Assembly: GCF_029873635.1 (NCBI RefSeq) | Contig: NC_080428.1 | Span: forward strand, 62,863,957 to 62,927,956 | Direction of reading: 5' to 3' | DNA: 64,000 nt | From: Malania oleifera | Lineage: Eukaryota > Streptophyta > Magnoliopsida > Santalales > Ximeniaceae | Shown here: positions 12,406-50,558 of the stretch, one piece after another | Layout: every line of letters starts with the position of its first letter | Numbering within the stretch: the stretch's first letter is position 1 | Made by a program: the position numbers and the translations under genes | Notes under the pieces: generated by a model | What the model was told of the DNA's origin: nothing | The model's input: only the letters and a program-made list of their open reading frames with translations | Databases searched by the model: none

Positions 12406-12909
12406 TGTTGTGAATAAACTCGAAATTGCACAACGGAAATTAAACGCAACAATCAATGATGAAGAACCAAATATGGAACACACACACACACACACAGTAT
12501 ATCTAAAAGCAAGAACAACAATAATACAAAAGATTTGCGTGGTTCGGCAATGCCTACATCCACGAGAGCAATCGATAAAATTTCACTAAGTGTCAAAGAA
12601 CATATAATACAATCACTCTTACAAGGATCTTCCACTCTCAAAATATACCCAGAATGGTATATTTATAAACATTTTGAAGGCTCTCATCAAAACATTCAAC
12701 CAACTTAACGTTGACATTCAAATTTTGAAAATCTGCGCTGGGTTCCCGAGCCAGACAGTTGACTATTTTAATGAATTTTGGAGCAAACCATCGATTGATT
12801 CAGCCAAACAGTCGACTGTTTGTAGCTGCTCCTCAACACATGTAATTTTCAATTATATTTTCTTCCTTGTTTGCACTTCATCAAGTATATGAGTCACAAA
12901 CACACAACA
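12406..12909 (-). repeat. Left (3') LTR of the copia element
   Basis: On the minus strand it starts TGTTGTGTGTTTGTGACTC and ends TTCACAACA. It carries the perfect 16-bp palindrome AAACAGTCGACTGTTT at 12806-12821, a decayed CAGTTGACTATT near 12757, ATCGATTGAT near 12790, and a TATA-like TTTATAAATATACC downstream of them (about 12652-12670). A short CA microsatellite lies near 12480-12496. Confidence 0.88.
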
Positions 12910-13285
12910 ATCTCCACCTTGGTGAGTATACACCCCTTAGGAGAACCTGAAAACATATCTCGCTGCTCCATCTTGACCTTGGAATGTTAGGTTGAGTCTG
13001 TCTCCCTTCTAACACTTGGAGACATGAAGTAAGTTCAAGTAATACTTGAACTTTTTAGTAGTAACCAGTTTTGTCAAAATGTCCACTGCATTTTTAAATG
13101 CGTGAACCTTCTCCAATACAATCACCTGAAGTAATTAATTCTCGGATCCTATGGAATCTTATATCAATATGCTTAGTTCTGGCATGGTACACTTGATTCT
13201 TAGCCAAGTAGATAGCACTTTGACTGTCAAAACGTAGCACAACCCCACTTTATTGTATACCCAACTTTTTGACCAACCCGGTAAG

Positions 13286-13501
13286 TCATAAGGCTTCCTT
13301 TACAGTTTCGGCAACTGTCATATATTTAGATTCAGTTGTAGACAATGCCACCAAGGATTGTACCATGGACCTCCAACATATAGGTCCTCCCGCAAGGGTA
13401 AAGACATAACCCTTTGTAGACCTTCTGTCATCCATATCCCTTACATAATCTGCATCAACAAACCCCACAACTGATAGACTATCATGTTGCTTGCCGAACA
13501 T
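13286..13501 (-). pseudogene. copia RNase H remnant (fossil)
   Basis: The translation contains VGFVDADYVRDMDDRRSTKG and LVALSTTESKYM, signatures of copia RNase H (the usual forms are DADWAGD..RRSTSGY and VALSTTEAEY). Confidence 0.88.
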
Positions 13502-13800
13502 GATGTCGCAACTAGAAGTACCTCGTAAGTATTTGAAAATCTATTTGACGGCTTCTCAGTGTTGTTTACCCAAATTAAAGAGAAACTTACTCACCACACT
13601 CACTACATGTGCCAAGTCTGGTCTTGTACACACCATGGCATACATTCAGCTTCACATGGCGCTAGGATAGTGGACCTCTGACATGTCCTTGATATCATCA
13701 TTTGTACTTAGGCATTCAGTAGTAGAAAATTTAAAGTGACTCATTAGAGGTATACATTTTGGTTTAGCATCAGTCATGTTGAACCTTTCCAACACCTTCT

Positions 13801-14853
13801 CTACATAACCGCCCTAAGATAACCATAACCTCCTTGTAGTTTTGTTCGGCGAATCTCCATCCCAAGTATCTTATTGGCTAGACCAAGATCCTTCATGTCA
13901 AACTCTTTATGCAACAGATCCTTTAACTGATTTACCTCAGTTAAATCCTTCGCAGCTATTAACATGTCATCGACATACAATAATAAGAAAATAAGAGAAC
14001 CATCATCAAGCTTTTTTACATATACGTAGTAGTCATACTCACATCTTTTGTAACCGATGCTAATCATATAGAAATCAAATATTTTGTACTATTTCCTTGG
14101 AGACTATTTCAGCCCGTAAAGAGACTTCTTCAACTTGCAAACTAAGTGTTCTTGCCCTGGTTCACTAAATCCCTTCGACTGTGGTATATAAATATGTTCC
14201 TCCAAGTCACCTTAGAGGAATGTCGTCTTCAGATCCATTTGTTCCAAATGCATATCATAATAAGCTAATAACCCCAACACTACCTTGATGGAAGTGTGTC
14301 AGACCATAGATGAATCAATTTCATTATAATCTATTCCATTTTTCTGTGATTACTCCTTTGACACTAACCGTGACTTAAATTTCTCGCCTTTCTTTTCTAA
14401 AATTGCTTTCTTCTTCCTATATACCCATTTGCAACCTATCACCATCTTCCCATTTGGAAAATCCATGAACTCCCAACTTTGATTCTTATGCAACGATTCC
14501 ACTTCCTCAATCATAGCACCCATCCACTTACTTTTCTCCTGGTTGTGCAATGTCTTTTGAAAAGTAGTTGGATCATTGTATATGGTAATGAAAGCATAAG
14601 ATACTAACTCCTCAAACTCATACCTTGGCGGTGGTCTGATAGTGCGTCTGGATTTTCGTATAGGAATATTGTCGACTTGCTGGTTTCTCAAGCTATAACT
14701 CCTTGCAACTAGAGGACTAAGATCATTGTCATTGCCCTGAGTTTCTAACTCCACCTGCACAACATGTTCGTCTCTGCTCCAGTTTTCTAGCTCTCGTTTC
14801 TCTTCATCAAATTCTTGAGTATGCTTCATCATAACTTTCTCATCGAAAACCAT
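13801..14853 (-). pseudogene. copia reverse transcriptase remnant (fossil)
   Basis: One piece carries the active-site region LLLYVDDMLIAAKD and KEFDMKDLGLANKILGMEI; another piece carries the N-terminal part with ESLHKNQSWEF and GCKWVYRKK. These are hallmark copia reverse transcriptase blocks. The region is broken. Confidence 0.88.
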
Positions 14854-15663: not shown

Positions 15664-15693
15664 TGTAACAAACAAGAGAAATGACACGTGGCC

Positions 15694-15879
15694 TCGTCGA
15701 CAAACACAGGGAGTTCATCGACGAGTCCATAAAGGGGCCTCATCGACGAAGCCACGCCTCGTCGATGAGAAAATACCGAGAGAGGTTTTTGGACAATCTG
15801 AAGTTCATCGACGAGGAAGGAAGTTCATCGATGAAATTTCTTAAGGACTCATCAACGAGATGACGTGTCTCGTTGACGA
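15694..15879 (+). repeat. Palindrome array upstream of the TATA box of S2
   Basis: Eight copies of TCGTCGACGA or its CpG-decayed forms (TCATCGACGA, TCGTCGATGA, TCATCAACGA, TCGTTGACGA), mostly 20 to 45 bp apart, ending only 10 bases before TATAAAAA. Three CpGs per 10 bp stand out in an AT-rich LTR. Confidence 0.85.
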
Positions 15880-15935
15880 ATCTGAGGCTATAAAAAGAAA
15901 AACCCAGATATTTTCATTAGAAAATCAACGCAGAA

Positions 15936-15937
<2 letters not shown>

Positions 15938-15999
<62 letters not shown>
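15938..15999. repeat. (CT)n microsatellite in the S2 leader
   Basis: About 31 CT units, starting about 40 bases after the TATA box of solo LTR S2, hence at the expected start of its transcript. Confidence 0.95.
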
Positions 16000-16000
<1 letters not shown>

Positions 16001-16790
16001 AAACGCACCCCTCCCCTTCTCTCTTCGATCCTGGCTCCATTTCTCGTCGGATTGAAGATCTGAGGTCACCACGATGCTCCTAGCAAAGTTCTCAGCAAGT
16101 CTGCTGGAGCTGATCGTGGGGAAAGTTGGTTTAAAATTCATCCCAAATCCAGGGTAAGGTGTTTTATTTAGAATTCTACTTTCCCTACAGTTATAAGAAG
16201 TGTTGTATATAGAATAATACTGATATTTTGTTCTGGGGGATATTGTTTTCAGGATGTTAAGTTAGGAATCCTACGGATATAGGGCCAGAATTTAGTAGGG
16301 GCTTTTTAGATTTAAGGTAAGGAAAATATGCTATGCTAGCAATTTTAATATGTATATAGAAGATTATGAATGTGTATTTACAAGTATGCAGATCAGATTA
16401 TTTTTCTAGAGAATTATGAATATTATTTTTATAACAGAATTATAGAAATTGAGCATGAGATTGTGTTTACTCAAATGTGTGGCATGAGTTTATTACAGTA
16501 CAATATATATATAGATTTTACAGTATTACAGATATTCAGATGTTTCACATTATTAGAAATGAATGAGACTTACAGTATTTCCCAGAAAAAAAAATATGAT
16601 TTCTAAACCATAACACTCAGACAGTTTATTCAAATAGATTATACAGCTATAGCATCAAGATGCTACAGTAGATTATTCAGAGATTACAAATATTATATAT
16701 AGAGTATACATATATTATACACAGAGTATACATATATTATATACAGATATTACAGATAGTACACACAAAAATCACAATTGATACAGACGG

Positions 16791-16793
<3 letters not shown>

Positions 16794-16821
<28 letters not shown>
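16794..16821. repeat. (TA)n microsatellite in S2
   Basis: About 14 TA units inside solo LTR S2; a second, longer TA run follows at 17406-17442. Confidence 0.9.
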
Positions 16822-17402
16822 TTCAGTCAGATATCTCAAATAATACAACTCAGAATTATAGTGTTATGGTTGTTTTTGAAATCATGTTAAAAGCAACAAG
16901 ATGATTATATATTTATGTATATATATAGTATTACACGATATCAAACCCCTATGGAAATTACAGACAGATATTTATACAGCAGAGCACGGTACCGTTGCTA
17001 GTTTCAGACACGTGCAACCACATGAATCAGATAATATGTGGATTCCGTCTAACCATGTTGGGAGAGATTTGCAGTCTCTCCAGCATACTGGGTTGAGGTA
17101 GCCAGTTAGACGATGACAGAGGTTTGAGATAGCCTGGAGTGATTGCAGTGGGTTAAGATCTACACAGATCGATACAAATTGGTGGATGATAGAGATTGAC
17201 TTACTTGGAGGGCCGACCAAAGTAAGTCCAGCCTAAGGGCCACACAACCTTATCATGAGGGGGATATATCATAATATACAGATCTCAGGGTATAACAGAA
17301 GTTCCTATGTACAGATATATCATGCAGCAGCAGTTTATACTATTATAATAGCAGTACCTTCAAATAGCAAACTCTGATACACAGTTATATTTTAAAGATT
17401 AC

Positions 17403-17405
<3 letters not shown>

Positions 17406-17442
<37 letters not shown>
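17406..17442. repeat. (TA)n microsatellite in S2
   Basis: About 18 TA units inside solo LTR S2. Confidence 0.9.
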
Positions 17443-17445
<3 letters not shown>

Positions 17446-17914
17446 TGTACAGTTTATCAGTTTTCTCATATTACAATATTATTTCAGTATTTTAAATATT
17501 TAACTCAACCGCCATACACTAGTAATAGCATATTTCCACTTACTGGGCATCGTCTCATCCCAGTAACTTATCATTTTTCAAGAGATCCAGCTAGGCGAGC
17601 AGATCAGGATCGTGAGTAGAGGTTGACTTGAGTTGCCCTTGTGGGAAGGGTAGGTACTTTTGAGATAACAGTGTTTGGGATAGCTTTCAGATTATAGTAA
17701 CGTCACTGGGTATTTTGTATTGTAAATAAATTTCAGAGCATTATAGTTTTCTAGTATTGTATATAGCAGTTCCCAGTTTTGTGTACCGCTGCTTAGTTAC
17801 GTATGACGGACAGAGTTTCTTCAGTGCTCTTTTGAGCCTGAGTTTTTTTCAGTACTATTTCAAACAGTTGATATTTATGAAAAAAAAATGTTGAATAAAT
17901 AGCAAGTCGTTACA

Positions 17915-18333: not shown

Positions 18334-19931
18334 CGTACGTACCTGCTATTTAAATGGGGTTTTTTTTTATACTATGATATTTAAAATGCTCTGATATCAC
18401 ACTGAATTAAACTCATTCATCAACCTAAGCAGCGAGAAGTGGAAATCAAATAAACATAACCATATGTAATTATGTACAGTACGAGAGTGCTACATTGTTT
18501 CCCAAAATATACATATATGACTGTTTCCTCAGAATACCCTCGATTGACTAAAATTATACAAAAATACTCCCAAAAATACTCACTCTAATATCAGGGCAAT
18601 ACTGAGGCCCCTCTATCTGCGAGCCTAATCTACTCGCCTACCTGGATCACCTGAAAAATGTTAAAATAATTGGGATGAGCCAAAGCTCAGTAAGACAAAA
18701 TATGCTATTGCTAGTGTGTGGCAGATAAGTTACAATATTATATAAATATGTTTCTATAAAATCATGTATAACTAGATTTGTAAATACAATACAAGTAATA
18801 GAAACGACCACCATATCCATGTTACTTAACATATCAGTATTTTAGGGTACTATTTAAAATACTTCTAATGTACATAAGTATATTCTCTGTCTCTATAAAT
18901 ATGTATATACATAATAATAACTGAAAACTTCCCTGTGGATAATTGTGTGTCATGATTTAACCCCTTATGACAGGGTTGTGCGGCACGTAGGCAGGATCTA
19001 CCCTGGCTGGCCAACCACGAATAAATCACTATACTCCATAGTCTGATCAGCCCTCCTCTACCCATATCTAATAGGGAGCCTGTCCACTCGTGGGCTCTAT
19101 GCGATCGACCTTTATACCACGTATTATCTGAATAGGTGGTTACACTCTATATATTGTATGTAGCTACGGTACCATGCTCTGTAAACTGTATGGTCTAACA
19201 GGGTCTGATACTATATAATACATCTCTATATGTACAATTATCTGTTTTACCATAATTTTGTAATAACTGTATAAACCATGACGCTATAGAAAACTGTATC
19301 TATATCAACTTTGTTTCTGTAATTAACTGTAAATCGATATGTCATGGTACTATAAAATTGTATAATCATGGTATTTCTATAATTGCTGTAAAATATATTC
19401 ACTGTCTGCATATTCTGTAAAACATAACTCAGGAAAATACTGTAAAACATATTTCTGTACTATATCTATATTCTCAAGCCACACGGTAATTTTAAAACAT
19501 AATAATCATATTTAATAAATTGTATAAATCTCTACTGTAAACAACACTCTGGTGGAACATTTATAATATTATACTGAAAACATATTCAAATAACCTAGCA
19601 TAGCATATTTCCCTTACCTTACTCTTGCTAAAATCCCCTTACTATAACGGGTCCTACATCCCCAGGGTTCTCCACTCAACACCTTGAAAACCACATTTTC
19701 TAGAACAAAATATCAATATTTCTTGGCCTACATCAATTCCTACAACTGTCAAAAGGCCAAAAACTAAATAAAAGACCTTACCCTGGATTTGGGATGAATT
19801 CCAACTTCGTTCCACCGACGATCCGCTCCGGCAGACTTGCAGAGAACTCCGCCAAAGGCGTCGTGGTGGCCTCAAATTGTCGATCCGGTGAATGACGAGG
19901 CCGAAATCGAAGAAAGAAGGAGGAGGAGTCG

Positions 19932-19935
<4 letters not shown>

Positions 19936-20005
<70 letters not shown>

Positions 20006-20006
20006 G
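19936..20006. repeat. (GA)n microsatellite in S3
   Basis: About 35 GA units on the plus strand, i.e. CT on the LTR sense strand, just downstream of the TATA box of S3. In the sister copy S1 this spot has only a short GA stretch (about 1932-1942), so the tract is unstable. Confidence 0.95.
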
Positions 20007-20062
20007 GTTTCAGCTGAAATTTTTGTGTAAAAATTCGAGTTAAACACTATTTATACTGCGGC

Positions 20063-20304
20063 CTTCGTCGACGAACAACGTCATCTCGTCGACGAGTCCT
20101 TCAGTAATTTCGTCGACAAACCTTACTTTCTCGTCGACGAATTTCAGATGGCCTAAAACCCCTCTCGGTATTTTCTTGTCAATGAAGCTCGCCCTCGTCG
20201 ACGAGGTCCTGTTGTACCCTAGTCAACAAATCCCCTGTATTCGTCGACGAGGCCCTGATAAATTTATTGGGGTATTTTTCCAAAGTATGATGTTGTCGAC
20301 GAAC
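20063..20304 (-). repeat. Palindrome array upstream of the TATA box of S3
   Basis: About nine copies of TCGTCGACGA or near forms. Most are less decayed than in S1: TTCGTCGACGAAC, CTCGTCGACGAGT, TTCGTCGACAAAC and CTCGTCGACGAAT occur in the first 90 bases. Confidence 0.85.
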
Positions 20305-20382
20305 GCTTTGCCTCCTTCTATTACTATTTCCATTTCTCTCCCTCTTTATTATTCAAATACCATTATTCTTTGGGTCGTCACA

Positions 20383-20497: not shown

Positions 20498-22158
20498 TGT
20501 AAGAACCCGACCCGTGAGATATGGAATAAATAAATAAGAAAAGGGTAAAATAGTAAATTGAGCAGGCTTCGTCGACGAGGCCACCGCGACATCAACGAAC
20601 TTCCTTCGTTGACTCGTCGACGAAGACGCCGCCTCGTCAACGAGGTTGGCCGAGTCAAAGGCTCTATAAATATCTTTTTCTTTGCTTCATGGCTAAGATA
20701 TCAAAATGCTCTCTCTCTCTTTCTAAGAACTCGAAGCTCCACTCTCTCACTCTCTCTAGAATCGAATATTCGAAGTTACTGTGAGGATTAGGGAAGGAAT
20801 CTCTACGTGTTCTGTGGAACGGATCTTCGTTTTGGGGTTTTCGAGTTTTGACCCAAAAATCGAGGTAAGGCTCGATTTTTATTTCTGTTTCGATAGATCT
20901 ATAGAGAATGGAATTGTAAGTATGTATTGTACTATAATTTATAGGTTTTGGGAACTCGGTTCGCTGTTTAGGAGTCATAAAGTTCAGGTTTGGATTTTTG
21001 GGGAAAGGTAAGGGGATTCTATTTATATCGGTTATTTTTGAAATCGAATTCTGTAGAACTGTGGTGCACGATCTTGTGTGTGTTTTGGCTACTTATTTGA
21101 GGGAATCTAACATGTAAAATTTTAGGATTTTCATGTGACAATTTTGGGAAAAAGGGGGCATAGGGTTGCATCTCTGGTTTCGTTAGAAAATCGTCGATAT
21201 ATTGTGTTATATATTGTGTTATGGAGATGGTCGTGCTTTGACTTGTTTTAAACTGTATCTTGAAAATCATGATTGTTGAGATTATTAAATGAGTGTGGAA
21301 TGAACTGTTATATGAATATGCATTGAGTTGTGATTTGCTAAAATGAGATATAGGAACGTGAGTTCCGAATTGTTCCAGGTTGTGAAAGAGTGTCTGGCTC
21401 TATATCCAAGGGTATGAAATACCACCTACTAGTGGCAAGAGTGTCCGGCTCTATATTTGAGGGCGTGAAATATCACCTTTTATCGGCTGATCACCGAAGG
21501 GTGTGGATCCACCAGTCGTACCGATATGATGCCATGGGAGTCTGGGGCTATGCCATGTGTCAGGAATGCCGTGCAATGCAGGCCAGCTTCATGCCAAAGG
21601 GTATGACAACACCGGGTTACTTGATCATGTGTGTGTTGAAAACTATACCAGAACTATTTTGTGAAAATACTGGAAAGGAACTTTGTATATTTTATGTCAT
21701 GATAACACTCATATGCCACACATCGATATGACCTAATTTTGCCTTACTGAGATGTGTCTTACCCCTATCGTACGTACATGTTTTCAAGTCCTTTGAGTAA
21801 CCGAAACTAGTGTCCTAGTGTTGGAAGCGTGGTGGTCGGTTTACTACATAGAGTACTAGAGTAAGTACTTTGACTGTAACAGGGTTGTCGTTTCGGGTAA
21901 TGCGGGCACCCTGGGTTATGTTTTGCATTATGGAGTTTAGACTCTGTTTGTATAGACTTTGGTATGGTACTGTGTATGTTTAGAATGAACTTTTTCGCTA
22001 CGTATATGTCATGTATGTGAATGTGTATAGGGTGTACAGGAACCCCACGGGATCGGACCCTCATTCATTATAGTATCATTTGTGTTTTGTATAACACAAG
22101 GATAGGTTAGGTTACTACATCAAACCCTTGGGCCCATTTTCGGATTCGGGGCGTAACA
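20498..22158 (+). repeat. 5' LTR of G1
   Basis: A 1,661-bp LTR starting TGTAAGAACCC and ending GGGGCGTAACA. U3 holds four TCGTCGACGA-type palindromes (about 20570-20645). TATAAATA is at 20665-20672. A tandem pair of about 51-bp units (GAGTGTCTGGCTCTATATCC type) lies at about 21387-21490. It is shorter than the 3' LTR mainly in the palindrome segment. Confidence 0.92.
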
Positions 22159-22424
22159 GCTTGGTATCAGAGCTAACTAGGTTGCTAGGTCTTGTAGACT
22201 TGGTTAGGCGTAGCTATATGTACATACCAGAGTATAAGATGTAGGAAATGGGTAGAATAGGCCAAGGGTTGTTTTGTTGCTAGACAGGGACTCGTTGGCG
22301 GTGTTCTGTGTTTTTCCTGAGATGACGATTTCAATAAAATCACGGCAATCCATTGATGGTTTCATGTCGGTGTGATAGGATAGACCTGGACCCGTGAGAG
22401 TAATAGTTGACATGATTAGTTCTA

Positions 22425-23560
22425 ATGATTGTGTTAACTGTGTACGACATAGGAATTCTAACTGATTCCTATTCTATTTTCAGAATTGAGCCCAAGAATA
22501 ACAACTTGGATAGTTGCTCCGAGGGGACTACAGGTGATGAGTCTCCTTCCGTGCCTCGAGGGTTGACGAGGCAGGTTATGTGGGAGATCGGGCGGAATGT
22601 TAGGAGGCATAAATGCTCTCCTACTGTTACGGGGTGTACCATCAAGAGGTTCACAAGTATGCACCCTACAAAGTTTTTAGGAGGACCCGATCCGATGATA
22701 GGAGAGGACTGGGTAGAGAAGACCGAAAGGATTTTGAAGGTCCTACACTACACAAATAAGCAAAGAGTCCTTTACACCAACTTCCAGCTATCTGAGGAGG
22801 CTGGGTGATGGTGGACTACGGTGAGTCTGCTAAAGAAGCAGAGAGTTGGACCAACAGAGATGTCGTGGAGCCACTTCAAGGAAGTGTTCTTCAAGACATA
22901 CTTCCCGGCCTCCATACGCGATGCTAAGGCGGATGAGTTCTCTTTTCTGACACAGGGTGATATAACGGTGTAGGGGTATGCTGCTCGGTACATAAAGTTA
23001 TCCCATTTCGCGCCATGCTTGATCTTGAACAAGTACGAGAAGACTCAGAGGTTCAAGAAGGGTCTAAGGAAAGACATCCGCAAATTAGTGGGTATGCTGC
23101 ATATCCGTGAGTTTTTGATTTTGGTAGATAAGGCCACTGTGATCGAGATCAACATCAAGGAGGATGAGGTGGGTCAGGAACCGAAGAAGAGGCCAGTGTC
23201 ATCTGGTTCTCATCAGGGATCATGGAAGAAGAGGGACCATGGCTCAGCTTACCGCCAGAATACCGAGCGTTAGGGTTCCTAGGTGGATCAAATACACGAT
23301 CGTTGTATCAGGTGTCACAGATGGCATGAAGGTGAGTGCCAGTCATTTGGGGGTAACTGTTACAGTCGTGGAAAATCAAGCCACATGGCTCGTGACTACC
23401 GCACACTAAAGGGAGACACGCATGCATCTAGTGTGAACCGGGGTAACAATCAGATACCTAGGGGAACCATCCAAGTGAACACAACTCTGACAAGGGTATA
23501 TTCTCTTACTCCAACGGATGCTGACCGTGCGGGGAATGTAGTGACTGGTACCTTGTTATT
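22425..23560 (+). pseudogene. G1 gag remnant (fossil)
   Basis: Contains the gypsy gag block around FTSMHPTKFLGGPDP and a Cys/His-rich zinc-knuckle remnant near 23290-23400 that ends GKSSHMARDY. The gag of G3 (41361-40918, minus strand) is clearly related. Confidence 0.8.
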
Positions 23561-27529: not shown

Positions 27530-27589
<60 letters not shown>

Positions 27590-37860: not shown

Positions 37861-37871
37861 AACCCCCTATA

Positions 37872-40122
37872 TGTTGACCTTATTGGTCATGCCCGGTTTT
37901 GATTATGACAAATACTCATTGTATCTAATGAGTGTTTGAGGTTTTGTGCAGGAATTAAGACTTTTAAGATCAAGATGTGTACAAAGCAAGCAAAGATTGA
38001 AGACCCAATTACATTATGTTGTAATATGTAATTCATTTGTGTAATTGGTCTGTAATATTAATTAGGGCTATTTGGTTTGTAATAAGCTCACACACATCAC
38101 ATGTATGATTTACTACATAAGTTCAAACAAACCATAAATAAGAAAGGACCTTAGAAAGACCTTAGGGTTTTCACTTCGGTCGACCGACACCAGACTTTTC
38201 CGGTGTCTTCAAATTGAACCCCAAGTGACTCTAGGACACACACATATACACATTTTTTTGTTAAGCACTTGAATAGGGTTTATATGCTTCAAGATTGGAC
38301 CGAAATGCACACATGGTGCACTTTCGGTCGACCAGCACATTCAGTTCATTTTGGCCTGGTCGACCGAAACCAGGCCTGGGTCAACAGTTGACCAAGGCCC
38401 TGGTCGACCGAACCAAAATAGTTCAAAAAGCCCTGGTCGACCGAAACCCTTTTTGTTCAACTTTTTGACCACCTGGTCTACCGAACCAGGTAGTTCAAAA
38501 AGCCCTGGTCGACCGAAACCTCGTTGGGTCAAAAGTTTGACCATATGGTCGACCGACCACTTTTATACTATAACTACCTGGTTGACCAAAGGGTCCTTGG
38601 GGAAAATCCTAGCAATCTGGTCGACCAACCAGGTAGTTCAAAATGCCCTGGTCAACCGAAGCTCGAAAAATTGGGAAATTGCCCTCTCCTGGTCGACCGT
38701 GCCCTTAGTTCAATATTTCCCTGGTCGATCGAACCATTTAAACATGGTCGACCGAAACATTTCTGGTCGACCGGACCTCTCAGGTTGCCATCATTTTTAC
38801 CGCAGGTTAATACTTTTTAAAAAGGGTTAAAATGTTTTAAACATCATTAAACTTTCCTAATAATACCCAATAAGTCCCCAACGGTCATATTTTCTCTCAT
38901 GTCTATATATATGAATTCATTTGAGAAAATTAGGTGTGATTTACCACTTTGATTAGGGAAGAATTTTCTGAAAAATAAAAACCCTATACTACTCACTTTT
39001 GGGCCTCATTCACTCAAGCTTACTTTCTATTATCGCCTACATCATTTGTAAGTGGATTGAGTGTGTGTTTGAGAAGGTTTGCTCTCCTTATTTTATTTGT
39101 TTGACATGATTTTATTTGAGAGCAAAACCTAAGGATTCTTAGGGGACTTTGTTGATAAGTCTATCCTAAGAAGATTTTGTTAGATCTTCTAAATTTGCAC
39201 CTTCATTGCAAGATCTTGAGAAGAGTGTATTTGTTTTTGGTTGCAAAAACTTTTCAAACACTTCCAAATATATTACTTGCTAAAATACAAAGATTACACA
39301 TCTTTTGCAAACCAAGCATATACATCATTTAATACTTAAGTGCTTGAGATATCTCACTGATTGATATACTTGAGACTTGACATCTTTGTGTGGACTTATT
39401 TGCTAAATATATTGTGATACAAAGATTGCTTGTTTGTCACTCTCACGTACGCATTACACTGATAAAAAATACTTTTGAGAGTGGAACCATTTAGACCACA
39501 TTGAGCTTACATATTGAATCATATTGTGGTGTTTCTTATTGCGCGCATTTGGGTACATATCTACTTTGCACGAAAGCACAATCACTGTACCATCTAATTA
39601 TATACACATTTGTTGTATATCCACGCACGGGCCTGAAGAGGGAGACTAGCCCTGGAATAGTCTTGGATTGGCTTTGACCCAGTTAGGAAAGCTTGGTGCG
39701 TCGTCTTGTTAAGGCGTGTAGGTTGAGGTCAGCCCCTCTAATTGACCTGATTAAGGTTGAGGTCAGCCCTGTGTTAATTTGACCTGGTTGTAAACGGTGC
39801 CGCTCCACCCTTAAGTGAGCTTCTAGTGGAATCCTCTAGCTTACGAGTTAGAGGCGGGGACGAAGGCACAGTTGGCCGAACCCCGATATCATATCGTATG
39901 TTCATTTACATTTCCACACTTTATATTTACTGCACGTATATATTATTGTGTGATTGATGCGTTTGATTTAATTTTCACATCATTGTTATCTCGCATTCGG
40001 AAATTGCATTAACAAGTCCCTAGGTTGTGTATATACTGTTGTTGAATAGATTAACCTAGGAGAAAATGTTTTAAATTCCAATTCACCCCCCTCCCCCTCT
40101 TGGGAATACACCAATTCTAACA
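37872..40122 (+). mobile_element. Solo LTR S5 of a different, SIRE-like family, inside G3
   Basis: A 2,251-bp solo LTR from TGTTGACCTT to AATTCTAACA with the perfect 5-bp duplication CTATA (37867-37871 and 40123-40127). G3 coding sequence resumes on both sides. The end AATTCACCCCCCTCC...CTTGG resembles the 3' part of LTRs of SIRE/Maximus-type copia elements; this family call is from memory and moderate. It carries an array of GGTCGACC palindromes (38179-38772) upstream of a TATATATA stretch near 38903-38912. It was the last insertion at this site. Confidence 0.85.
38179..38772 (+). repeat. Array of GGTCGACC palindromes in S5
   Basis: About 15 sites in 600 bp, 11 of them exact GGTCGACC, most in the wider context CTGGTCGACCGAA. 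The four variants are GGTCTACC, GGTTGACC, GGTCAACC and GGTCGATC. Between sites a short motif AGTTCAAAA(A/T)GCC recurs, so part of the array arose by duplication of a unit. A TATA-like stretch follows about 130 bp after the last site. Confidence 0.92.
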
Positions 40123-40229
40123 CTATAGTTTCACAAAACTAGCAGATATAAACAAATGGGTTACTCCCGAATCAAATAAAACAACAGCTCTATTTGAAAG
40201 CAATAACATGGTACCCGTCAACACGTTCC

Positions 40230-41361
40230 CAGCGTGTTCTACATTTGCTGGAGTAAGGGAGTACACCCTCTTCGAAACCGTGTTTGCCTAATAGTTCCCC
40301 CAAGGCATCTGATTACTTCCACGGTTCTGGTTCTGTGTAGGCATCTCCCTCCTTTATGCCTGACATTTTCGGGATATGTGGCCCGATTTGCCACAATTGT
40401 AGCATTTACCCCAAGACGGCTAGCATTCACCGTCGTGCCATTTACGACACTTGGTGCATGGTGTGGAGGATAGATCCCTCTGAGAACTCTACCATTCGGT
40501 ATTCTAGTGATAAATCGAACTATAATTCTTCTTCTTCTTCTTCTTCTTCCACTGTCCCTATCGAGGACCAGTCTGAGAACCAGAGGATACTAGGCTCTTC
40601 ATCTATTCATGTACCACCTCATCCCTCTGAAGGTCAACCTCAACTATGGCGGCTTTATCCATCAAAATAGAAAACTCTTGGATCTGCAACATCCCCACAA
40701 GCCTACGAATGTCCTTCCTCAAACCCTTCTCGAACCTATGAGCCTTCTCATACTTGTTCGAGACCAAGTATAGCACGAAACGAGATAACTCAATATATCT
40801 GACAACATATCTCTGCACCGTTGGGGTTCCCTACGTCACGCTCGAGAACTCATCAGCCTTCGCGTCACGAGTGGAAGCCGGGAAGTATCTCTCGAAAAAT
40901 ACCTCCTTGAAACGGCTTCAAGTCATACTAGATAGATCAGCTCTCTGCTTCTCAAGAAAACTTACAGTCTTCCACCATCTTTCCGCTTCTCCTGCCAACT
41001 GAAAGGTAGAATAGAGAACCTTTTGCTGGTCAGTGCAATGCAGAACTTTCAATATTTTCTCGATCTTCTGCACCCAGTTCTCCGCTACTATTGGATCGGG
41101 TCCTCCCGTAAATGTCAGAGGGTGCATACGGGTGAATCTCTCTATGGTACAACCCGTGGCAGTAGGATAGTGCTCACGTCTCCTAACACTACGCCCGATC
41201 TCCTGCATAACTTGCCTCGTCAAACCCCGAGGCACAGAAGGAGACTCGTCACTTGCAGTCCCCTCAGAACCATCATCCAAGTTGTTATCCTTGGGCTCCA
41301 TTTTGAAAATAAGATAGGAATCAGTTAGAAATCCTATATCATACACAGTTAACACAATCAT
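40230..41361 (-). pseudogene. G3 gag remnant (fossil)
   Basis: The minus-strand translation has FTRMHPLTFTGGPDPIVAENW and QLAGEAERWWKTVSFL, which is the gypsy gag core also seen in G1, and further on a zinc-knuckle remnant near 40350-40400. A short CTT/TTC microsatellite lies near 40528-40548. Confidence 0.85.
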
Positions 41362-41628
41362 TGAAAGCTAATCATGTCAACTACTACTCTTACGGGTCCA
41401 GGTCTGTCCTACCACACTGACACAAAACCATCAATGGTTTGCCGTGATTTTATTGAAATCGTCATTCCAGGAAAAACACAGAACACCGCCAATGAGTCCC
41501 CGTATAGCAACAAAACAACCCTCAACCTACTCTACCCATTTCCTACATCCTATACTTTGGTATGTACACATAGCTACGCCTAACCAAGTCTACAAGACCT
41601 AACAAACTAGTTAGCTCTGATACCAAGT

Positions 41629-43453
41629 TGTCACGCCCTAAACCCGCGGATGGGTTTCAGGTGTGAATATAATAACCTAACATGTCTCTGTATCAATTAA
41701 AACATACATGATACTACACTGAATGAGGGTCCGACCCTGTGGGGTACACGTACACCCTATACACATTCATATACATATCCATACTCATCAAATATGCAAC
41801 GAAAATGTTCTTTCTACATATACATCATACCATACCAGAGTCTATACATAACTAGAATATATGTTCCCAAAATACAATACATACTCTAGGTGTTTACAAA
41901 ACCCAACAATGACAACCCGGTTACAAAACCCATACTTACACAGGTACTAAACGCAGCTAACCAACACCCACACTTTCAAACACTAGGATGCTAGTTTCGG
42001 CTACCCAAAGGACCTAAAAAATATTTGTATATTCGGGGTGAGACACCTCTCAGTAAGGAAGAAAGCAAGATATATCAATGTGCGGCATATAAGTGTTATT
42101 CCAATATAAAACATGACACGATACAGTTCCAGTATTTTCACAATTATGTTCCAGTACATACAATACCAAACATACGGTCAGTGTCATCACACTCAAGCAA
42201 TTGATACCCTGTAATAACCGAAGTCTCACAGCGATATCATACTAATACAGTGTTCACTCACACCCATCGGTGACTAACTGGAACGAACAGGTGATATTTC
42301 ACACCCTCGGATATAGAGTCGGACACTCTCGCCCATGGTAATTAGCCGAGACACAGCGACAGCGTACGATAATTAGCTGCCCCTAGCTGCTTTACAAAAC
42401 CTAGAACAATTTTGGAACTCATGTTCCTATACTCATCAGCGTACAGTAATTAGCTACCCTTGGCTATTTTACAAAACCCTGGTACATTTTACATGCAACA
42501 TTTCATTCCACACTTATTTGAGTATACATCAAATCATATCGTTTTCAATTTGAGAAATACAATTTAATACAAATACAGGTACGGTCATCTCATTACTACC
42601 AATTTATAAAACATATGATTTTCCAAACGAAATAGAGATGATACCAAAAACCTCAAATTTTCCCAAAAATTGTAACCTAAAAATCCTGCATTTTCACGTG
42701 ATAGATTTTTCCAAATAAGTAACCAAAACATACATACAATTGTAAACTACATGTTTACCAATTCCAATTTCAAAAATAATTGATATAAATAGAATCCCCT
42801 TACCTCTTTCGGAATACTAAAATACGAACTTTATGACTCCAAAACTACGAACCAAGTTCCCAAAACCTAAACATCCAAGAACTATACTTCACTACAATTC
42901 TTACTACTACATATATACCGAAATGAAACTGAAATCGGACCCTGAGGTTTTGGGTCAAAACCCATAGATCCCCGAAACAAATTTTCGATCCGCTAAAAAC
43001 GTAGAGCTTCTCCTCCTGATCCACGTGGTAACGTCGGATCGTCGATTCCGGAAACTGATGGCTTGAAATCCTAGAGAGAAAGAGAGAAGTTTCAAGTTCT
43101 GGAGAGAAAGAGAGAGTTTAGCTTTCTTAGCAATGAAGCAAATGAAAAAGATATTTATAACCCTTTGACCCGGCCAGCCTCATCAACGAAACGGCGTCGT
43201 CGTCGATGAGCCGCAGAAGGAAGTTCGTCGATGCCAAGGTGGCTTTATCGAAGAACCTTAGATTTCAGGATTTCCCAAAATCTCTCGGCATCTCCTCGTT
43301 GACGAACTATTGAATTTCGTCGCTGAGCTAAACAAGAGGCTTCGTCGTTGAGCAAAGAAGCCTCATCAACGAACCCTGTAAATTTTACCTTTTAAACTTT
43401 CCTTCTCTTTTCCTCATTTATTTAATACATCTATCCTGGGTTGGGTTCTTACA
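41629..43453 (-). repeat. 5' LTR of G3
   Basis: A 1,825-bp LTR, close in length and sequence to the G1 LTRs. It has TCGTCGACGA-derived sites at about 43190-43380 (plus strand), mostly decayed, for example GTCGTCGATGAG and TCATCAACGA, followed on the minus strand by TATAAATA near 43156. Confidence 0.88.
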
Positions 43454-43581
43454 ATAGAGGTTAGTATGGAACACCCATTTTCCCCTTGTTTGGGTGGGTT
43501 ATATATGTATGGTATCAGAGATACATATGTTATGTATGTTTAGTGGTACTTCGGGCCTACCTAGAGGGTCGGGGCGCTACA
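43454..43581 (+). repeat. G2 5' LTR, last piece
   Basis: Matches the end of the 3' LTR (50435-50558), ending GGGTCGGGGCGCTACA, directly before the primer site. Confidence 0.88.
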
Positions 43582-43639
43582 ATTGGTATCAGATATGTAA
43601 GGTACCAAGATTCTAAACAATTTTCTCAATTATCTCTTC

Positions 43640-44900
43640 AGGATGGAGTCCAGGGATAATACTTCTAACGCTAGAAGCAGTACCAGTAAAGGGGCTAGCC
43701 ATGAGGCTGGCAGTGACTCCATAGTGGTATTTCGAGACTTTATCAGCAGTTTATGGTGGAGATCATGCGGAGTTCTAGGGGGCAAGACCGTCCCACGGTT
43801 GAGCTGAAAGGTTCTATTATTAAGTTCACCCGACTAAAGCCTCCTACCTTCGCAGGGAGTATAGACCCCATCCGAGTAGAGAATTAGATTCGGGAGATCG
43901 AGGAGATCTTGGTTGTTCTACGTTGCACGGATAAGCAGAAAGTGCTCTATGCTATGTTCAAATTGATAGGTGAAGCGAAGAGATGGTGGGAATTAGTGAG
44001 GATGTTGGAGGAACAGAGGCCAGTATAGGTGGCAATGACATGGGGTCATTTTAGAGAGGCGTTCTTTGAGCGATAATTTCCATCCACTGTCAGGAATGCA
44101 AAGATGGAAGGGTTCATGATCCTGACTCAGGGGCAGTTGATGATGAAGCAATACACCGCAGATTCATGGAGTTGTCCCGCTTTGCTCCGTTTATTGTACT
44201 GGATGAGGCGAGGAAAGCTTGGAAGTTTAAGAGGGGTCTGAATAAGGAGATCCAGAAGCAGATGGCGATACTACAGATACAGGACTTTGCTACTTTGGGT
44301 GATAAAGCCAATGTGGTAAAGAAGAGCTGGTAGGGGGATTCAGAGGTTCAGATTTTGAAGAAGAGGCCAGCACCTTCCAGTTCTTATTCAGGTTTGAGGC
44401 AAGGCACTTGGAAGAAATATGGTTGTGGTGGAGGCCAGCGGCGAAAGACTGGTAGTGGTACTTCTCACGGTACCACATCTTCCTTTGCTTGTCCTACTTG
44501 TGGCAAGCAACATGTAAGGAAGTGCATGATGGGTTCAGGTGTTTGCTAGCAATGTGGTAGACCAGGGCATATGGCGCGTGAGTGCGACTCGCCATATTGG
44601 GGAGGTGCTCAGGCACCACGTGGTGGATATCAAAGGGGTACTACCCAGGCAAGGGTGTATTCCCTAATCCCTCGCAACACAAAGAACGCAAGAGATATGG
44701 TGACAAATAATATTTATATGCTTTCAAATAAAGTTGTGGTATTATTTGATTTAGGAGCAACGCATTCCTTTATTTACCAGGGATTCGTTAAATTATATGT
44801 GTTAGAGGCACAACTATTAGATAAACAATTAGCAGTAGCCACACCATCAGGGTCAGTAGTCATATGTAGTAGGGTGACTCAGGGTTTCCCATAGAGATTC
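43640..44900 (+). pseudogene. G2 gag and protease remnant (fossil)
   Basis: Gag core KPPTFAGSIDP near 43840, zinc-knuckle QCGRPGHMARECDSP near 44550-44590, and protease VVLFDLGATHSFIY near 44735-44775 (the usual motif is DSGATHSFI). Confidence 0.85.
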
Positions 44901-45148
44901 AGGGGAGAGTGTTACCATTCAGTTTGATTGTGTTTGAGATACATGGCTTCAATATCATTATAGGGATGGACTAGCTAGCGGCCAGTTATGCCAGCATCGA
45001 TTTCCGCATAAAAGAGGTAGTATTCAAGCCTCCCAGGGAGCAGGAATTCAAGTTTGTGGGGTCGTGTGTGCGTTTTGCACCACGTATCCTTTCAACTATT
45101 TAGGCTAGGAGGTTACTTATAGAGGGATGCCAGGGGTATCTGGCATTT

Positions 45149-48096
45149 ATGAAAGAAATTCTGAGAGGAGAACTTAAGTTGGAGGAGATTCCCATAGTGA
45201 ATGAGTTTCCAGATGTGTTCCTAGAGGACTTGTCGGGATTGCCTTCTGATTGTGAGATGGAGTTCACTATAGATTTTACTCCAGGCATGGCACCGATTTC
45301 GAAAGCTCCATATCGTATGGCTCCAGCAGAACTGAGGCAATTGAAGGAGCATCTACAAGAGTTACTTAATAAGGGCTACATCCGACCGAGTATTTCACCT
45401 TAGGGAGCACCGGTGCTATTTGTGAAGAAGAAGGATGGGTCGATGAGGATGCACATCGACTACAGAGAGATTAACAAGGTGACAGTGAAGAATAAATACC
45501 CGTTACCCAGAAATGATGATCTGTTTGACCAGCTGCAAGGCACACAGGTCTTTTCTAAGATCGATCTGCGACCTAGGTATCATCAGCTAAAGGTGAAGTT
45601 GGAGGACGTACCGAAAACTGCATTCCGAACTAAGTATAGCCACTATGAATTTTTGGTTATGCCTTTTAAATTGACCAATGCTCCTGCAGCATTTATGGAC
45701 TTGATGAACAGGGTGTTCCACAAGTGTTTGGATCAATTTGTGGTCGTTTTCATTGATGAAATCACGATTTATTCGAGGAGTCTTGTGGAGCATGCAGTTC
45801 ATTTGAGGTTGGTACTTTGGGTGCTTAGGGAGAAGAATTTGTTTGCAAATTTAAGAAATGCGAGTTCTGGTTAGAGCAAGTGGCATTTCTGGGGTATGTT
45901 GTATCCAGGGAAGGGGTATTAGTGAAACCGAGTAAGATAGAAGCAGTAATGGACTGGGCGAGGTCGAATAATGTTCAGGAGGTCAGGAGTTTTCTGGGTC
46001 TTGCAGGATATTACCGACGGTTCGTAGTAGGGTTCTCCAGACTATTAGGTCCATTGACATGACTTACGAGGAAGAACGTAAAGTTTGAATGGACTGATGA
46101 GTGCAAGTAGAGTTTTTAGGAACTGAAGCAGTGGCTGGTTACTGCTCCAATTCTGACCATTCTATCAGGGGATGGTGGATTTGTTATTTACAGTGACGCC
46201 TCTAAGAAGGGTTTCGGGTGTGTTCTAATGCAATAGAGAAAGGTAACTGCTTATGCTTCTTGTCAACTCAATGAGTACGAGAAGAACTACACGACACACG
46301 ATATGGAATTAGCAGTGGTAGTGTATGCATTGAAGATCTGGAGGCACTACCTGTATAGTGAAAGGTGCGAGATTTTTACTGATCATAAAAGTTTAAAGCA
46401 CTTTTTCACCCAGAAGGAGTTGAACATGAGGCAGAGGAGATGGTTGGAGCTGATAAAGGACTACGATTGTATCATTAGTTACCACCAAGAAAATTTAATG
46501 TGGTAGCTGATGCTCTGAGTCGAAAGTCAGTGGATGTGCAAGTCTCAGCAGTAAGTATTTAGCATCAGATCAATATAGACCTAGAAAGGTTAGGAGTAGA
46601 GTTAGTGGAAGGAAATCACCAAGCCTTCATTTCTACCTTGGTGGTACAGCCGACCTTACGAGAGAAGATCAGAATAGCTAAGATGAAAGATGCAGAGCTA
46701 GTAGAGGTTATGGAGGGACTTCGAGATGATTTAAAGTCAAATTTCAATATCTTTGATTATGGGGTATTGAGATTCCATAGCAGAATCTGCGTACCGAATG
46801 ACGCCAAGATCAAGTGAATCATTCTAGAGGAGGCACATCATTTACTCTACACAGTACATCTAGGGAGTACAAAGATGTACTGAAATCTACAGGAATCTTT
46901 CTGGTGGTCTAACATGAAAAGAGAGATTGCCCGTTTCGTAGAGTAGTGCCTAATATGTCAGTAGGTGAAGGCCGAACATCAGAGGCTGGTGAAACCGTTG
47001 CAACCATTTCTCATTCCTAAGTGGAAGTGGGAGCACATTTCCATAAATTTTGTCACGGGATTGCCATCAGCACTTCATAGACAGAATGCAATTTGGGTTG
47101 TGGTTAACAGATTGACAAAGACAGCTCGTTTCATCCCCGTTAAAGTCAGTCATTCTATGGATAGGCTGGCAGAGCTTTATGTGCAGGAGATAGTCAGATT
47201 GTATGGGGTGCCGGTGTCGATTGTCTCAAATAGAGATCCACGATTTACTTCCCAGTTCTGGAAGAGTCTTCAGGAAAAGTTGGGATCTCAACTTACGTTC
47301 AATACTACGTTTCACCCAAAGACCGATGGTCAGTCAAAGAGGACCATCCAGATCCTAGAGGATATGCTGAGAGCATGTGTACTAGACTTTGGGGGCAGTT
47401 GGATCAAATATCTGCCGTTAGTTTTGTTTGCCTACAACAATAGTTATCAGGCTAGTATTGGGATTGCACCGTATAAGGCACTATATGGTCGGAGGTACCA
47501 ATCTCTGTTATACTGGGACGAGGTTGGTGAGCGACAAATGTTGGGGCCAGAGTTGGTCTAGCAAACCTCAGAGAAGGTCAAGCTCATCAGGGAACGAATT
47601 AAAGCAGCTCAAAGTCGGCAGAAGAGTTACGTTGATACACGTCGGCGAGAATTAAAGTTCGAGGTAGGTGATGCTATGTTTTTTTAAGATTGTTCTAATG
47701 AAAGGAGTGATGAGGTTTGGTAGGAAGGGCAAGCTAAATCCTAGGTACGTCGGACCGTTCGAAATTCTGGAGAGAGTCGGTTCAGTGGCATACAAAATAG
47801 CATTACCTCCCGCATTGTCTAGAATTCACGATGTGTTCCACTTGTCCATGCTTAGGAGGTCTGTTCCAGATTCTTCGCATGTGATCAGTTATGAGTCGTT
47901 GGAGCTCGAGGACACATTAGAATATGAGGAGATACCAGTTCATATCCTAAATCATAAAGAGCAGGAATTACATACGAAGAGGATTTCACTAGTAAAAGTA
48001 TTGTGGCATAATCACGCAATAGAGGAAGCTTCATGGGAGCTAGAGTCAAAGATACGTCAGAAGTATCCTCATCTTTTCAAAGATGCTCAGAGCTAA
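45149..48096 (+). pseudogene. G2 pol remnant: RT, RNase H, integrase, chromodomain-like end (fossil)
   Basis: Pieces in order: FPDVFLEDLSGLPSDCEMEF (45200-45260), reverse transcriptase [19 protein letters not shown] (45420) and [13 protein letters not shown] active-site region (45745), RNase [17 protein letters not shown] and [11 protein letters not shown] (46303-46420), integrase core (46965-47561, with TDGQSKRTIQ) and C-terminal VKVLWHNHAIEEASWELE (47995-48050), chromodomain-like. Confidence 0.9.
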
Positions 48097-48397
48097 ATAG
48101 GTAAACAGGACGGTAAGTAAGTGGTATGTATATATTATAGTTAGAGTAAGTTTGTTTATGGTTTAGAGTATATTTGGTCTTCAAAAGAGTTGCGTTTGGA
48201 TATTCTAATCTCCTGAGACACTATGTGTAACCACGGTATTCCTCCACCATAAGTGAAGGCAAGTAATAAATTTAGGATGGGGCTGCTATATGGGTAGGCG
48301 CGGGCTCTTCCTAAAGTCAGAACAGGGATAGTTCTGATGACATGATAGGAAACAGTTAGCAAATTTTGAGGACGAAATTTTTATAAGGAGGGGAGAT

Positions 48398-48718
48398 TGT
48401 AGAGACCCAAACCAGGAAAATAAGAAAATTAAATAAGAAAAAGAAAAAGGGGATTTCAGTCGGCTTCGTCGACGAAGTCCATGTTCTCGTCGACGAAGGC
48501 CCTTTTGAGGTTCGTCACCAAAATTCAGAGCATCGTCAACGAAGAGATCCAAAACGTCCGAAAAATATTAGGTTTAGGTTTCATCGATGAAGTCTTTCTC
48601 TCATCGACGAACGGCCTACTGTGGTTCGTCGACAAAGGTGTCATTTCGTCGACGAATTTGACTAGGTCAAAGGGTCTATAAATAGATTTTTAATTGCTTC
48701 ATTGTTAAAAAATCAAAA

Positions 48719-48749
<31 letters not shown>

Positions 48750-50558
48750 AGAACCTGTGCCCACACACTCTCTCTCTTCAATTTTTCGTCGTTCGTTGCC
48801 CGTTTTAACGATCAGAAGTTATCACGATGATCAGGAAGAGAATATGAACAGGTCTAGCAAAGTAGATTCTTGAACTCGGGAAAAGTTAGGGTTCAATTTT
48901 CGAGCGTCTCGGATTTTTTTCAGGAATTAGGTAAGGAGATTATATTATGTCAATTATGTTTATAAGTTCTACCCGAATGGAATGTTAACATGGTTTTTAT
49001 ACATATAGTTATGGCTTTTCTAGGGTTTCCAAACCTAGGGTTCGGTTAACCGAATTTATTTTCAAAAACCAACCGTTTAAATTTAAGTATGATATTTTTA
49101 AAGCATAGTATTGGACTTTATGAATGTTTTCATTGGTTGGAAAATTGTTATTTCAAACCACAAGCTTGTTTTAAAATCAACTAGAGACGGTAGGGTTGAT
49201 TATCTCCATTTTCCCCCTAATTAGCTATATATTTATATTTAGTAAAATAACAACTTGGAGATATCCATACCCCAGTTTTAACAGTAGTATTTACATTCTC
49301 AAGGAGATGATTTATTTATGAGTTACCAAATGAAAATTGTGTGGCATGAGTATAGTTTTTAATTGGCATTAAATGAGCAGGTTTTGTGTAATACTAAAAT
49401 GTAACGGCTATAAGCCAAGATGTGAGATATGATGGCTATATGCCAAGAGATAAGATGAGATATGATGGCTAAATGCCAATTTTTACCTTACCAGTTATGA
49501 CAGATATGATACGCCAATTTTTACCTAGTTAGTAATCTAGCAGATGTTTTCATAGAATTATGTATAGCTTTATGAAATGAACTATGATTACAGTTTTATT
49601 ATGATGTAAATTGTCATATATGATAGTAAAGCCCTGTTATGATGATCTCATGGTAAGAGCACAATAATGTAGCTATATGTATGTAGGGGTGCAACCACAC
49701 GTCTCAGATAGAGTGTGGATAGGAAAGGCGATTGGTGGCCTGGGTGTAAAGTACTCCCTGAGGCAGAGATTTCGGGCCCCCATCTGATGGAGTAATTTCG
49801 GATGACTTAGCCTTTGGGCGGCCTTCGGGTACAGATTGAGTAGGCACCATCGTACTACTTTATGTTTGACTTAGCATTAGTCAACCGGCTATTTCTTTGG
49901 TCCAGCTTCCGGGCCGCACAAACCATCATGAGGGGAAGCATGTCGCACGTGTATGTGATGGCGTGATGACGCTAGTCCTACAGATCAGGTTATATCTTCT
50001 AGGCATATATGGGCATATTTACTATAGAAATGACTATATTGAGCCAACAATATGTATTTTTCAGATTTATAGAGCAATATAGATTTTAAAATGTCAATTA
50101 AATGTATTTAAATGTTAGTAGTATATGTACACACGAAATCTCATGCTAGTCACACACTGATGATAATATAATCTGTCTTACTGAGAGGTGTCTCACTTTA
50201 GCAAACAAATGTTGTTTCAGGTCCTCTGAGGAATCGAGTTTAGCGTACCACTGGGTTGGTTGTTGAGCGTCGGTTGTTTTGTCAGAGTCGATGAGTCATA
50301 GACGGTAGCTATGTTCCTTTTGGGAATTGTAATAGTAGATTATGTTTTAGTTATGTATGAATGTATATGGGAAACAGTTAGAGACTCTGGTAAGTATTAG
50401 ATGATGTATATATTTCCAATGTGCCAATTTATACATGTTAGTATGGAGCAACTGTTTTTCCTTTGTTTGGGCGGGCTGTATATGTATGGTATCAAAGAGA
50501 TGTATGTTATGTATATTTAGTGGTACTTTGGGCCCACCTAGAGGGTCGGGGCGCTACA
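48398..50558 (+). repeat. 3' LTR of G2
   Basis: A 2,161-bp uninterrupted LTR, TGTAGAGACCC to GGGCGCTACA. About seven palindrome-type sites (about 48465-48655), including exact TTCGTCGACGAA-like sites, then TATAAATA at 48677-48684 and a CT-rich leader at 48719-48749. It contains the shared blocks near 49905-49940 and 50150-50205. Confidence 0.92.

Follow-up and report, generated by a model that had tools for sequence, protein, structure and literature searches.

In a 64,000-nucleotide stretch of the Malania oleifera genome (contig NC_080428.1, positions 62,863,957 to 62,927,956; hereafter the window), long terminal repeats (LTRs) of otherwise different retrotransposons carry arrays of palindromes built on the core GTCGAC. 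These arrays are real, lie before the TATA box and are abundant throughout the genome. They are probably landing sites for a host DNA-binding protein. As far as sequence comparison tells, arrays that have the core in common but cannot be aligned with one another occur in three groups of LTRs: those of Ty3/gypsy elements, one Sirevirus-like solo LTR, and those of a copia family that is rare in the genome.

GTCGAC palindromes in a nested stack of retrotransposons

The window, from a genome of 1,494,336,490 bp in 510 contigs, is a nested stack of LTR retrotransposons in which sequence reading and self-comparison distinguished nine LTR-bearing insertions: the gypsy-type LTRs S1 to S4, the gypsy elements G1 to G3, the Sirevirus-like solo LTR S5 and the copia element C1. 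It contains 41 GTCGAC sites. The U3 regions upstream of the TATA boxes, which make up 3,999 bp or 6.2% of the bases, hold 38 of them, the remaining 17,105 bp of LTR hold none, and three sites (14671, 51932 and 62898) are located outside LTRs. This bears out a preliminary description of the window, which had placed arrays with a common GTCGAC core upstream of the TATA boxes. GTCGAC accounts for 38 of the 212 CpG dinucleotides in U3 versus 3 of 1,246 elsewhere (Fisher p = 5e-30). Since the copies of a site are not independent of each other, the insertion is the fair counting unit; counted this way, intact GTCGAC occurs in U3 in eight of nine insertions and elsewhere in the LTR in none of the nine, G3 having decayed forms only.

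Exact TCGTCGACGA was found once in S1, five times in S2, three times in S4, twice and once in the two LTRs of G1, once and three times in those of G2, and not in S3 or G3. The 4-9 copies per gypsy LTR previously given therefore apply to S2 alone if exact copies are counted, while intact GTCGAC plus six-base CpG-decayed forms in U3 amount to 3-8 per LTR (S1 8, S2 8, S3 7, S4 6, G1 4 and 6, G2 7 and 7, G3 3). In S5, for which about 15 copies had been given, there are 11 exact copies of GGTCGACC and six decayed ones. In all eight gypsy LTRs measured, the CpG observed/expected ratio (o/e) is 1.44-1.88 in the array versus 0.46-0.82 in the rest of the same LTR. Because of this excess, the source copies of the gypsy elements appear to have kept a CpG-rich array. 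Spacings within arrays are 19-25, 45-48 and 64-72 bp in the gypsy type and about 32, 40 and 72 bp in the Sirevirus-like type. The latter peak at a helical period of 10.2-10.5 bp (R = 0.545, n = 60) and gypsy spacings show no peak (R = 0.188 at 10.5, n = 89); as the copies are related by descent, helical spacing supports no conclusion.

Element borders and target sites were taken from the printed sequence. S1 is located near the left end of the window (395..2359, minus strand, 3’ border approximate) and has GTCGAC at 2029, 2073 and 2120, a TATA-like ATAAATAG near 1995 and, next, a stretch resembling a primer-binding site (PBS). S2 (18397..20382, minus strand, 3’ border approximate) has seven GTCGAC between 20067 and 20295, five of them within TCGTCGACGA, and TATAAATA near 20055; its array (20060..20310) has a CpG o/e of 1.66 versus 0.62 in the rest of the LTR. 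The match between S1 and S2 ends at a similar place in both, soon past the PBS (363 and 18360), as would be expected if a single truncated unit of LTR and leader had given rise to the two. The solo LTR S3 (15664..17914, plus strand) is bordered on both sides by the target site duplication (TSD) CATAT and has one intact GTCGAC (15696) and six decayed sites, then TATAAAAA at 15889. G1 (20498..29039, plus strand; LTRs 20498-22158 and 27203-29039) is flanked by the TSD CTTCA on both sides and has the PBS TTGGTATCAGAGC after its 5’ LTR; its palindromes at 20571, 20616, 27296 and 27438 precede TCTATAAATAT.

S3, S2 and G1 are all nested in C1 (12406..30290, minus strand), whose 3’ and 5’ LTRs lie at 12406-12909 and 29832-30290 and are 74-82% alike. 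The two copia LTRs most likely belong to one element split by these insertions, because they have the same orientation, with a PBS beside 29832 and a polypurine tract beside 12909; a matching TSD was not found at the element ends. The AAACAGTCGACTGTTT-type sites of C1 (12811, 30101 and 30192) lie upstream of TTTATAAATATA, and only the one at 12811 is a perfect palindrome beyond 10 bp (18 bp).

G2 (30648..50558, plus strand, TSD ATTCT on both sides) has its 3’ LTR at 48398-50558 and a 5’ LTR split by S4 and G3 into three pieces (30648-30867, 32935-34720 and 43454-43584). Its palindromes (30785, 32950, 48468, 48489, 48628 and 48648) are upstream of TCTATAAATA, and the 3’ LTR array (48460..48665) reaches a CpG o/e of 1.88 versus 0.66 in the rest of the LTR. 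The solo LTR S4 (30868..32934, plus strand, TSD GACCT/GGCCT with one mismatch) carries palindromes at 30957, 31004 and 31069, followed by TATAAATG near 31085. S4 sits inside the 5’ LTR palindrome array of G2, so that an array is split by an element bearing its own, and self-comparison showed a tandem repeat of ~35 bp at 31700-31884, downstream of the S4 TATA box. The partial element G3 (LTR at 41629..43453, minus strand) has solely CpG-decayed palindromes, upstream of TTATAAATAT, and contains S5 (37872..40122, plus strand, TSD CTATA on both sides). An open frame at 3467-4363 near S1 encodes a Dof zinc-finger domain (Pfam E = 3e-32) and is apparently a host gene.

Profile hits were RVP_2 and SH3_Tf2-1 in G1, RVT_1 and SH3_Tf2-1 in G2 and a sub-threshold Ty3_capsid in G3; on these domains, G1 to G3 lack the Ty1/copia pol of Sirevirus members. 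The chromodomain PF00385 was below its 25.1-bit cut-off in G2 (E = 0.0042, 17.4 bits) and was not among the matches listed for G1. By their long LTR, their PBS and the end of the protein, G1 to G3 may be Tekay-like chromoviruses. C1 gave an RVT_2 match of 24.4 bits, under the cut-off of 31.6, and three of the ten stretches in the profile scan gave no domain.

Abundance and position of the arrays across the genome

Twenty 10-kb stretches at fixed positions on ten contigs (200 kb), chosen blind to the finding, served as a sample. GTCGAC had the highest observed/expected value of all 6-bp palindromes in it (74 versus 11.0 under a Markov expectation). The top 8-mers with at least 15 copies were GTCGACCG (69-fold), GGTCGACC (49-fold) and GTCGACGA (41-fold), and TCGTCGACGA and CGGTCGACCG occurred 11 and seven times, about 0.01 being expected for each. 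The preliminary description had called for a comparison with shuffled LTRs; in the nearest form of it made here, with CpG elsewhere in the window and the Markov expectation in the sample as references in place of shuffled U3 of each family, the enrichment of GTCGAC persisted. Among 19 clusters listed from the sample, eight were classed as gypsy type, seven as Sirevirus-like and four as neither. In the whole genome, TCGTCGACGA occurs 132,361 times versus 1,383 for the reversed control and GGTCGACC 128,541 times versus 6,493. The perfect C1-type site AACAGTCGACTGTT occurs 65 times versus two for the control. Of four AACAGTCGACTGTT loci, two could be aligned with the C1 LTRs of the window over 560-580 bases and a third over 147, and the fourth had no match at the threshold, so that C1 membership holds for some of the 65 sites and need not hold for all. 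The copia type of the preliminary description stands on one element in the window and these sites.

A chance origin of the arrays was rejected. With an array defined as three or more copies of one 8-bp palindrome, first-order Markov resampling of window plus sample (264 kb) gave 1, 0, 2, 0 and 1 local arrays in five rounds, versus 22 observed. Nine of the 22 consist of GGTCGACC or CGTCGACG and one more of the decay product CATCGATG. The remaining 12 comprise eight of AT-rich words, the overlapping CATGCATG and TGCATGCA in one sample stretch (L017), and TTACGTAA (four copies) and GCTCGAGC (three copies) in another (L013); hence local arrays of other palindromes exist. In L013 (4877-5010), the four copies of TTACGTAA lie within about 140 bp, with CGGCCG words between them, upstream of TTTATTTAAAA, possibly a further promoter array with a different palindrome.

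For the gypsy type, the order of palindrome and TATA box holds beyond the window. The gypsy palindrome lies 15-45 bp ahead of TATAAA in 18,124 genome-wide matches (9,232 + 8,892), and TATAAA lies at the same distance ahead of the palindrome in 3,280 (1,669 + 1,611), so that the palindrome comes before TATAAA 5.5 times as often as after. Going by how often TATAAA occurs in the sample, chance alone would give about 7,078 matches in each order, which puts the upstream order at 2.6 times chance and the reverse at about half. The number of matches is not a number of LTRs: a TATA box with two palindromes ahead of it contributes two matches, and TTTATAAA, which can be read in either direction, places some positions in both counts. 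From 23 clusters listed in the sample, nine with a single palindrome were dropped. Eleven of the 14 left have TATAWA within 250 bp on the LTR-downstream side, at 10-56 bp (seven gypsy-type) or 110-140 bp (four Sirevirus-like); in one stretch (L019) TATAWA flanks the array on both sides. As TATAWA is common in AT-rich DNA, this test is weak by itself.

The arrays of the different LTR types were compared by BLAST on both strands, with palindromes masked or not. No match within the arrays was found, and the best between-type match (E = 0.003) lies outside them. One transferred segment was rejected as their source, the arrays of the types not being alignable, in line with what the preliminary description had supposed. 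The gypsy S and G groups resemble each other over 30-61 bp within the final third of the LTR, to which the unmasked run adds a 58-bp CT-rich match; no further match was among those listed at E < 1e-4. In view of the lack of BLAST matches in the arrays and their different spacing, the core is common to the types while the arrays are not. The agreement in the core was spotted only after the fact. By our own estimate the luck needed for three CpG-centred 6-bp palindromes to agree, there being 16 such words, is of order 1 in 256, which makes luck an unlikely source of it.

A proposed dimeric protein site and the alternatives

In the explanation towards which we lean, with confidence only slightly above an even balance, the arrays would serve the LTR promoters as their upstream control element, formed by clusters of two-fold symmetric sites with a GTCGAC core. 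A plant DNA-binding protein would occupy each site as a dimer, some 10 to 140 bp ahead of the TATA box. Ty3/gypsy and Sirevirus-like copia at least, and probably C1 copia as a third lineage, would have reached the core separately, and the protein, identical or of one family for all types, would presumably activate rather than repress. After insertion, the copies would become methylated and silenced, and their sites would then decay by CpG deamination. The narrower proposition that one host protein (or small family) reads GTCGAC palindromes, and that arrays for it arose independently in distinct lineages of Ty3/gypsy and Ty1/copia, is put forward tentatively, as a possibility somewhat more apt to be wrong than right.

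Under a role in base pairing, substitutions would be expected to be compensated and the two flanks to agree. The 46 gypsy TCGTNNACGA words in the 264 kb have the centre CG in 27 cases, TG in 11, CA in seven and CC in one, and no other palindrome. At ±2 there were two departures, none palindromic. At ±3, 31 of 35 departures are CpG transitions, giving TCATCGACGA (14), TCGTCGATGA (nine) and TCATCGATGA (eight). In total, 49 of the 56 departures from the gypsy site are compatible with CpG decay. With the 18 of 134 sites that belong to neither group set aside, flank matching from ±6 to ±12 showed no significant excess in the gypsy-type sites (52) or the Sirevirus-type sites (64); the lowest p was 0.16. 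Genome-wide, the ±6 flank pair of the gypsy palindrome is T..A in 37,861, C..G in 29,470 and mixed in 54,641 cases (together 121,972 of 132,361); 60,697 mixed flanks are expected if the half-sites are independent, hence F = 0.10, far from the value near 1 expected under pairing. Because the flanks are near-independent and the core changes are mostly CpG decay, a dimeric protein site is favoured over base pairing for the gypsy type; the data favour a degenerate yet specific half-site that would be read twice by a dimeric protein. Convergence on a dimeric factor, as first suggested for all types, thus fits the gypsy type best at the level of sequence, while the factor itself stays putative.

Several results weigh against the proposed control element. 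In three of the 14 sample arrays, TATAWA is found solely on the wrong side (L010 4496, L022 4888, L025 5677). For the Sirevirus-like type, GGTCGACC 105-135 bp ahead of CTATAAA was counted in the forward order only (2,817 matches, 1,484 + 1,333, where chance would give about 1,215). C1 is a rare type in the genome, and its CpG o/e is little raised in the array (0.84 and 0.81 versus 0.78 and 0.72). No GTCGAC-holding paper was among the matches listed from the plant transcription-factor literature. Among the four departures at ±3 of the gypsy site that are not CpG transitions, the palindrome TCTTCGAAGA appears once; among the transitions, the symmetric double change TCATCGATGA was seen eight times versus 6.6 expected if the two sides decayed independently. 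Other palindromes occur at the Sirevirus-like 8-bp word one to five times each in the 264 kb, numbers so low that the pairing test is underpowered for this word. The value F = 0.10 is itself a slight symmetry excess in the direction that pairing predicts, of which mixing of families could be the source. Finally, none of 200 shuffles folded as well as the RNA of the S5, S2 or G2 3’ LTR arrays.

This folding (z = -7.75 for S5, taken over 38320-38600, -5.10 for S2 and -3.30 for the G2 3’ LTR) and the slight flank symmetry are what speaks for the palindromes acting as structure, either as hairpins or cruciforms or as paired U3 RNA feeding small-RNA silencing. U3 is present in the 3’ end of the transcript, and given the strong folding, small-RNA production from the arrays is plausible. 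In maize, palindrome clusters of Sireviruses draw an excess of small RNAs, as hotspots in mapping (PMC5311732) and according to Bousios et al. 2016 as cited in PMC10760457; these are likewise LTR arrays with strong predicted RNA structure, a property known for the arrays here from sequence alone, and the maize motif CACCGGACNNNGTCCGGTG differs in its core from GTCGAC (PMC10760457). Pairing, however, requires symmetry and not one particular core, and the gypsy site showed no other palindrome at ±1 and ±2 in the 264 kb and no significant flank symmetry further out. A single palindrome repeated in an array is prone to self-folding, so that the folding may be incidental; we take it to be a cost of the palindrome arrays and not their purpose. 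Overall we consider a structural role unlikely.

An explanation with a still smaller chance is that the arrays matter as dense CpG that sets promoter methylation, island-like when active and a target of methyl-CpG readers when silenced, with GTCGAC merely a convenient word. It would account for gypsy arrays being far richer in CpG than the rest of the same LTR, and repeat clusters mark CpG islands in Sireviruses (PMC2829016). Yet the share of CpG that falls in GTCGAC differs so strongly between U3 and elsewhere that the word itself is specific, and the CpG o/e of the S5 and C1 arrays is modest.

That one regulatory module spread among the families by recombination, a common core then meaning common descent, is improbable in our judgement. 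The types do have the core in common and nested elements offer chances for exchange, but the arrays show no between-type similarity, masked or not, and differ in flanking letters and spacing. A shade less credible again is the identification of the factor with WRKY-type proteins. T-5mC-G-A-C, in which 5mC is 5-methylcytosine, resembles the W-box core TTGAC, and CpG decay can yield a W-box. TTGAC[CT] reaches 4.5 (gypsy), 5.8 (C1) and 7.8 (S5) per kb in U3 versus about 1 elsewhere. S5 and C1 are no independent support, because GGTCGACC and CAGTCGACTG turn into W-boxes by decay in any case; the decay product of the gypsy site, TTGACG, is not a W-box, related LTRs were pooled in these densities, and of the two control words one likewise had a raised density in gypsy U3 (2.9 per kb). 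It is very improbable that U3 RNA palindromes help two genome copies to pair for packaging: retroviral dimer sites are palindromic and self-complementary sites are present at the RNA 3’ end, but the sites here cluster before the TATA box, and no exchange of one palindromic centre for another is seen in the gypsy site.

Relation to the Sirevirus repeats

Palindromic repeated motifs (RMs) were described by Bousios et al. 2010 (PMC2829016) in 13 Sireviruses. Each element has eight or more copies, which lie ahead of a TATA box and mark CpG islands. The passages concerned report them as absent from the other Ty1/copia elements compared and name no common binding factor. S5 is a solo LTR without internal region, and its likeness to Sireviruses is one of LTR features. 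It exceeds eight dyad-symmetric repeats with its exact GGTCGACC copies at 38179-38766. The RM given for the Vitis Sirevirus, CGGTCGACCG, equals the S5 core and is exact in one of the 11 S5 copies; with regard to the CGG-CCG signature of RMs, one of the 11 has both triplets, nine have one and one has neither. A TATA box soon after the array is found in S5 as well (CTATATATATG at 38903, about 130 bp past the last palindrome), and so is the C-rich signal near the LTR 3’ end (CACCCCCCTCCCCCTC, 40084-40099), which ends 23 bp short of the LTR end, the mean in PMC2829016 being 21 bp. With respect to the CpG island, the S5 array (38178..38773) has a CpG o/e of 0.86, at a GC content of 0.48 over 621 bp, versus 0.50 in the rest of the LTR. 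In view of the 11 copies, the TATA box downstream and the C-rich tract at this distance from the end, what is found in S5 was already known in kind, and the preliminary statement that no description was known fails for S5.

C1 does not reach the at least eight RMs of a Sirevirus: its LTRs of 504 and 459 bp have one and two intact and three and two decayed sites in U3. Unlike in the Sirevirus study, which on the passages cited covers Ty1/copia only, the same core is found here also in Ty3/gypsy LTRs and a second copia family. Among the matches listed from the open-licence literature, a ranked selection outside which most subscription papers fall, there was no description of the gypsy and C1 palindrome arrays, and no paper among those listed for TCGTCGACGA contains that word; this is not proof, and these arrays may be a parallel that has not been reported before. 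A layout of repeated motifs, some of them palindromic, in regulatory regions of transposable elements is known from several organisms, and the passage on this general layout does not state one core across superfamilies in one genome. Box I of Tnt1 (PMC2829016), a symmetric regulatory sequence in a plant retrotransposon, is similar by description.

With the gypsy and C1 arrays, a feature known from Sireviruses is extended, on the same core, to Ty3/gypsy elements and to one more copia family, so that convergence on a host factor becomes a testable proposal. In the passages of PMC2829016 concerned, the repeats are treated as Sirevirus-specific among the copia elements compared, and their occurrence in gypsy elements raises the question of what binds GTCGAC. 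If a single factor does so, it would be a main switch for retrotransposons that abound in this genome, and the superfamilies would clearly have converged in their regulation, one host factor having been captured in parallel by unrelated parasites.

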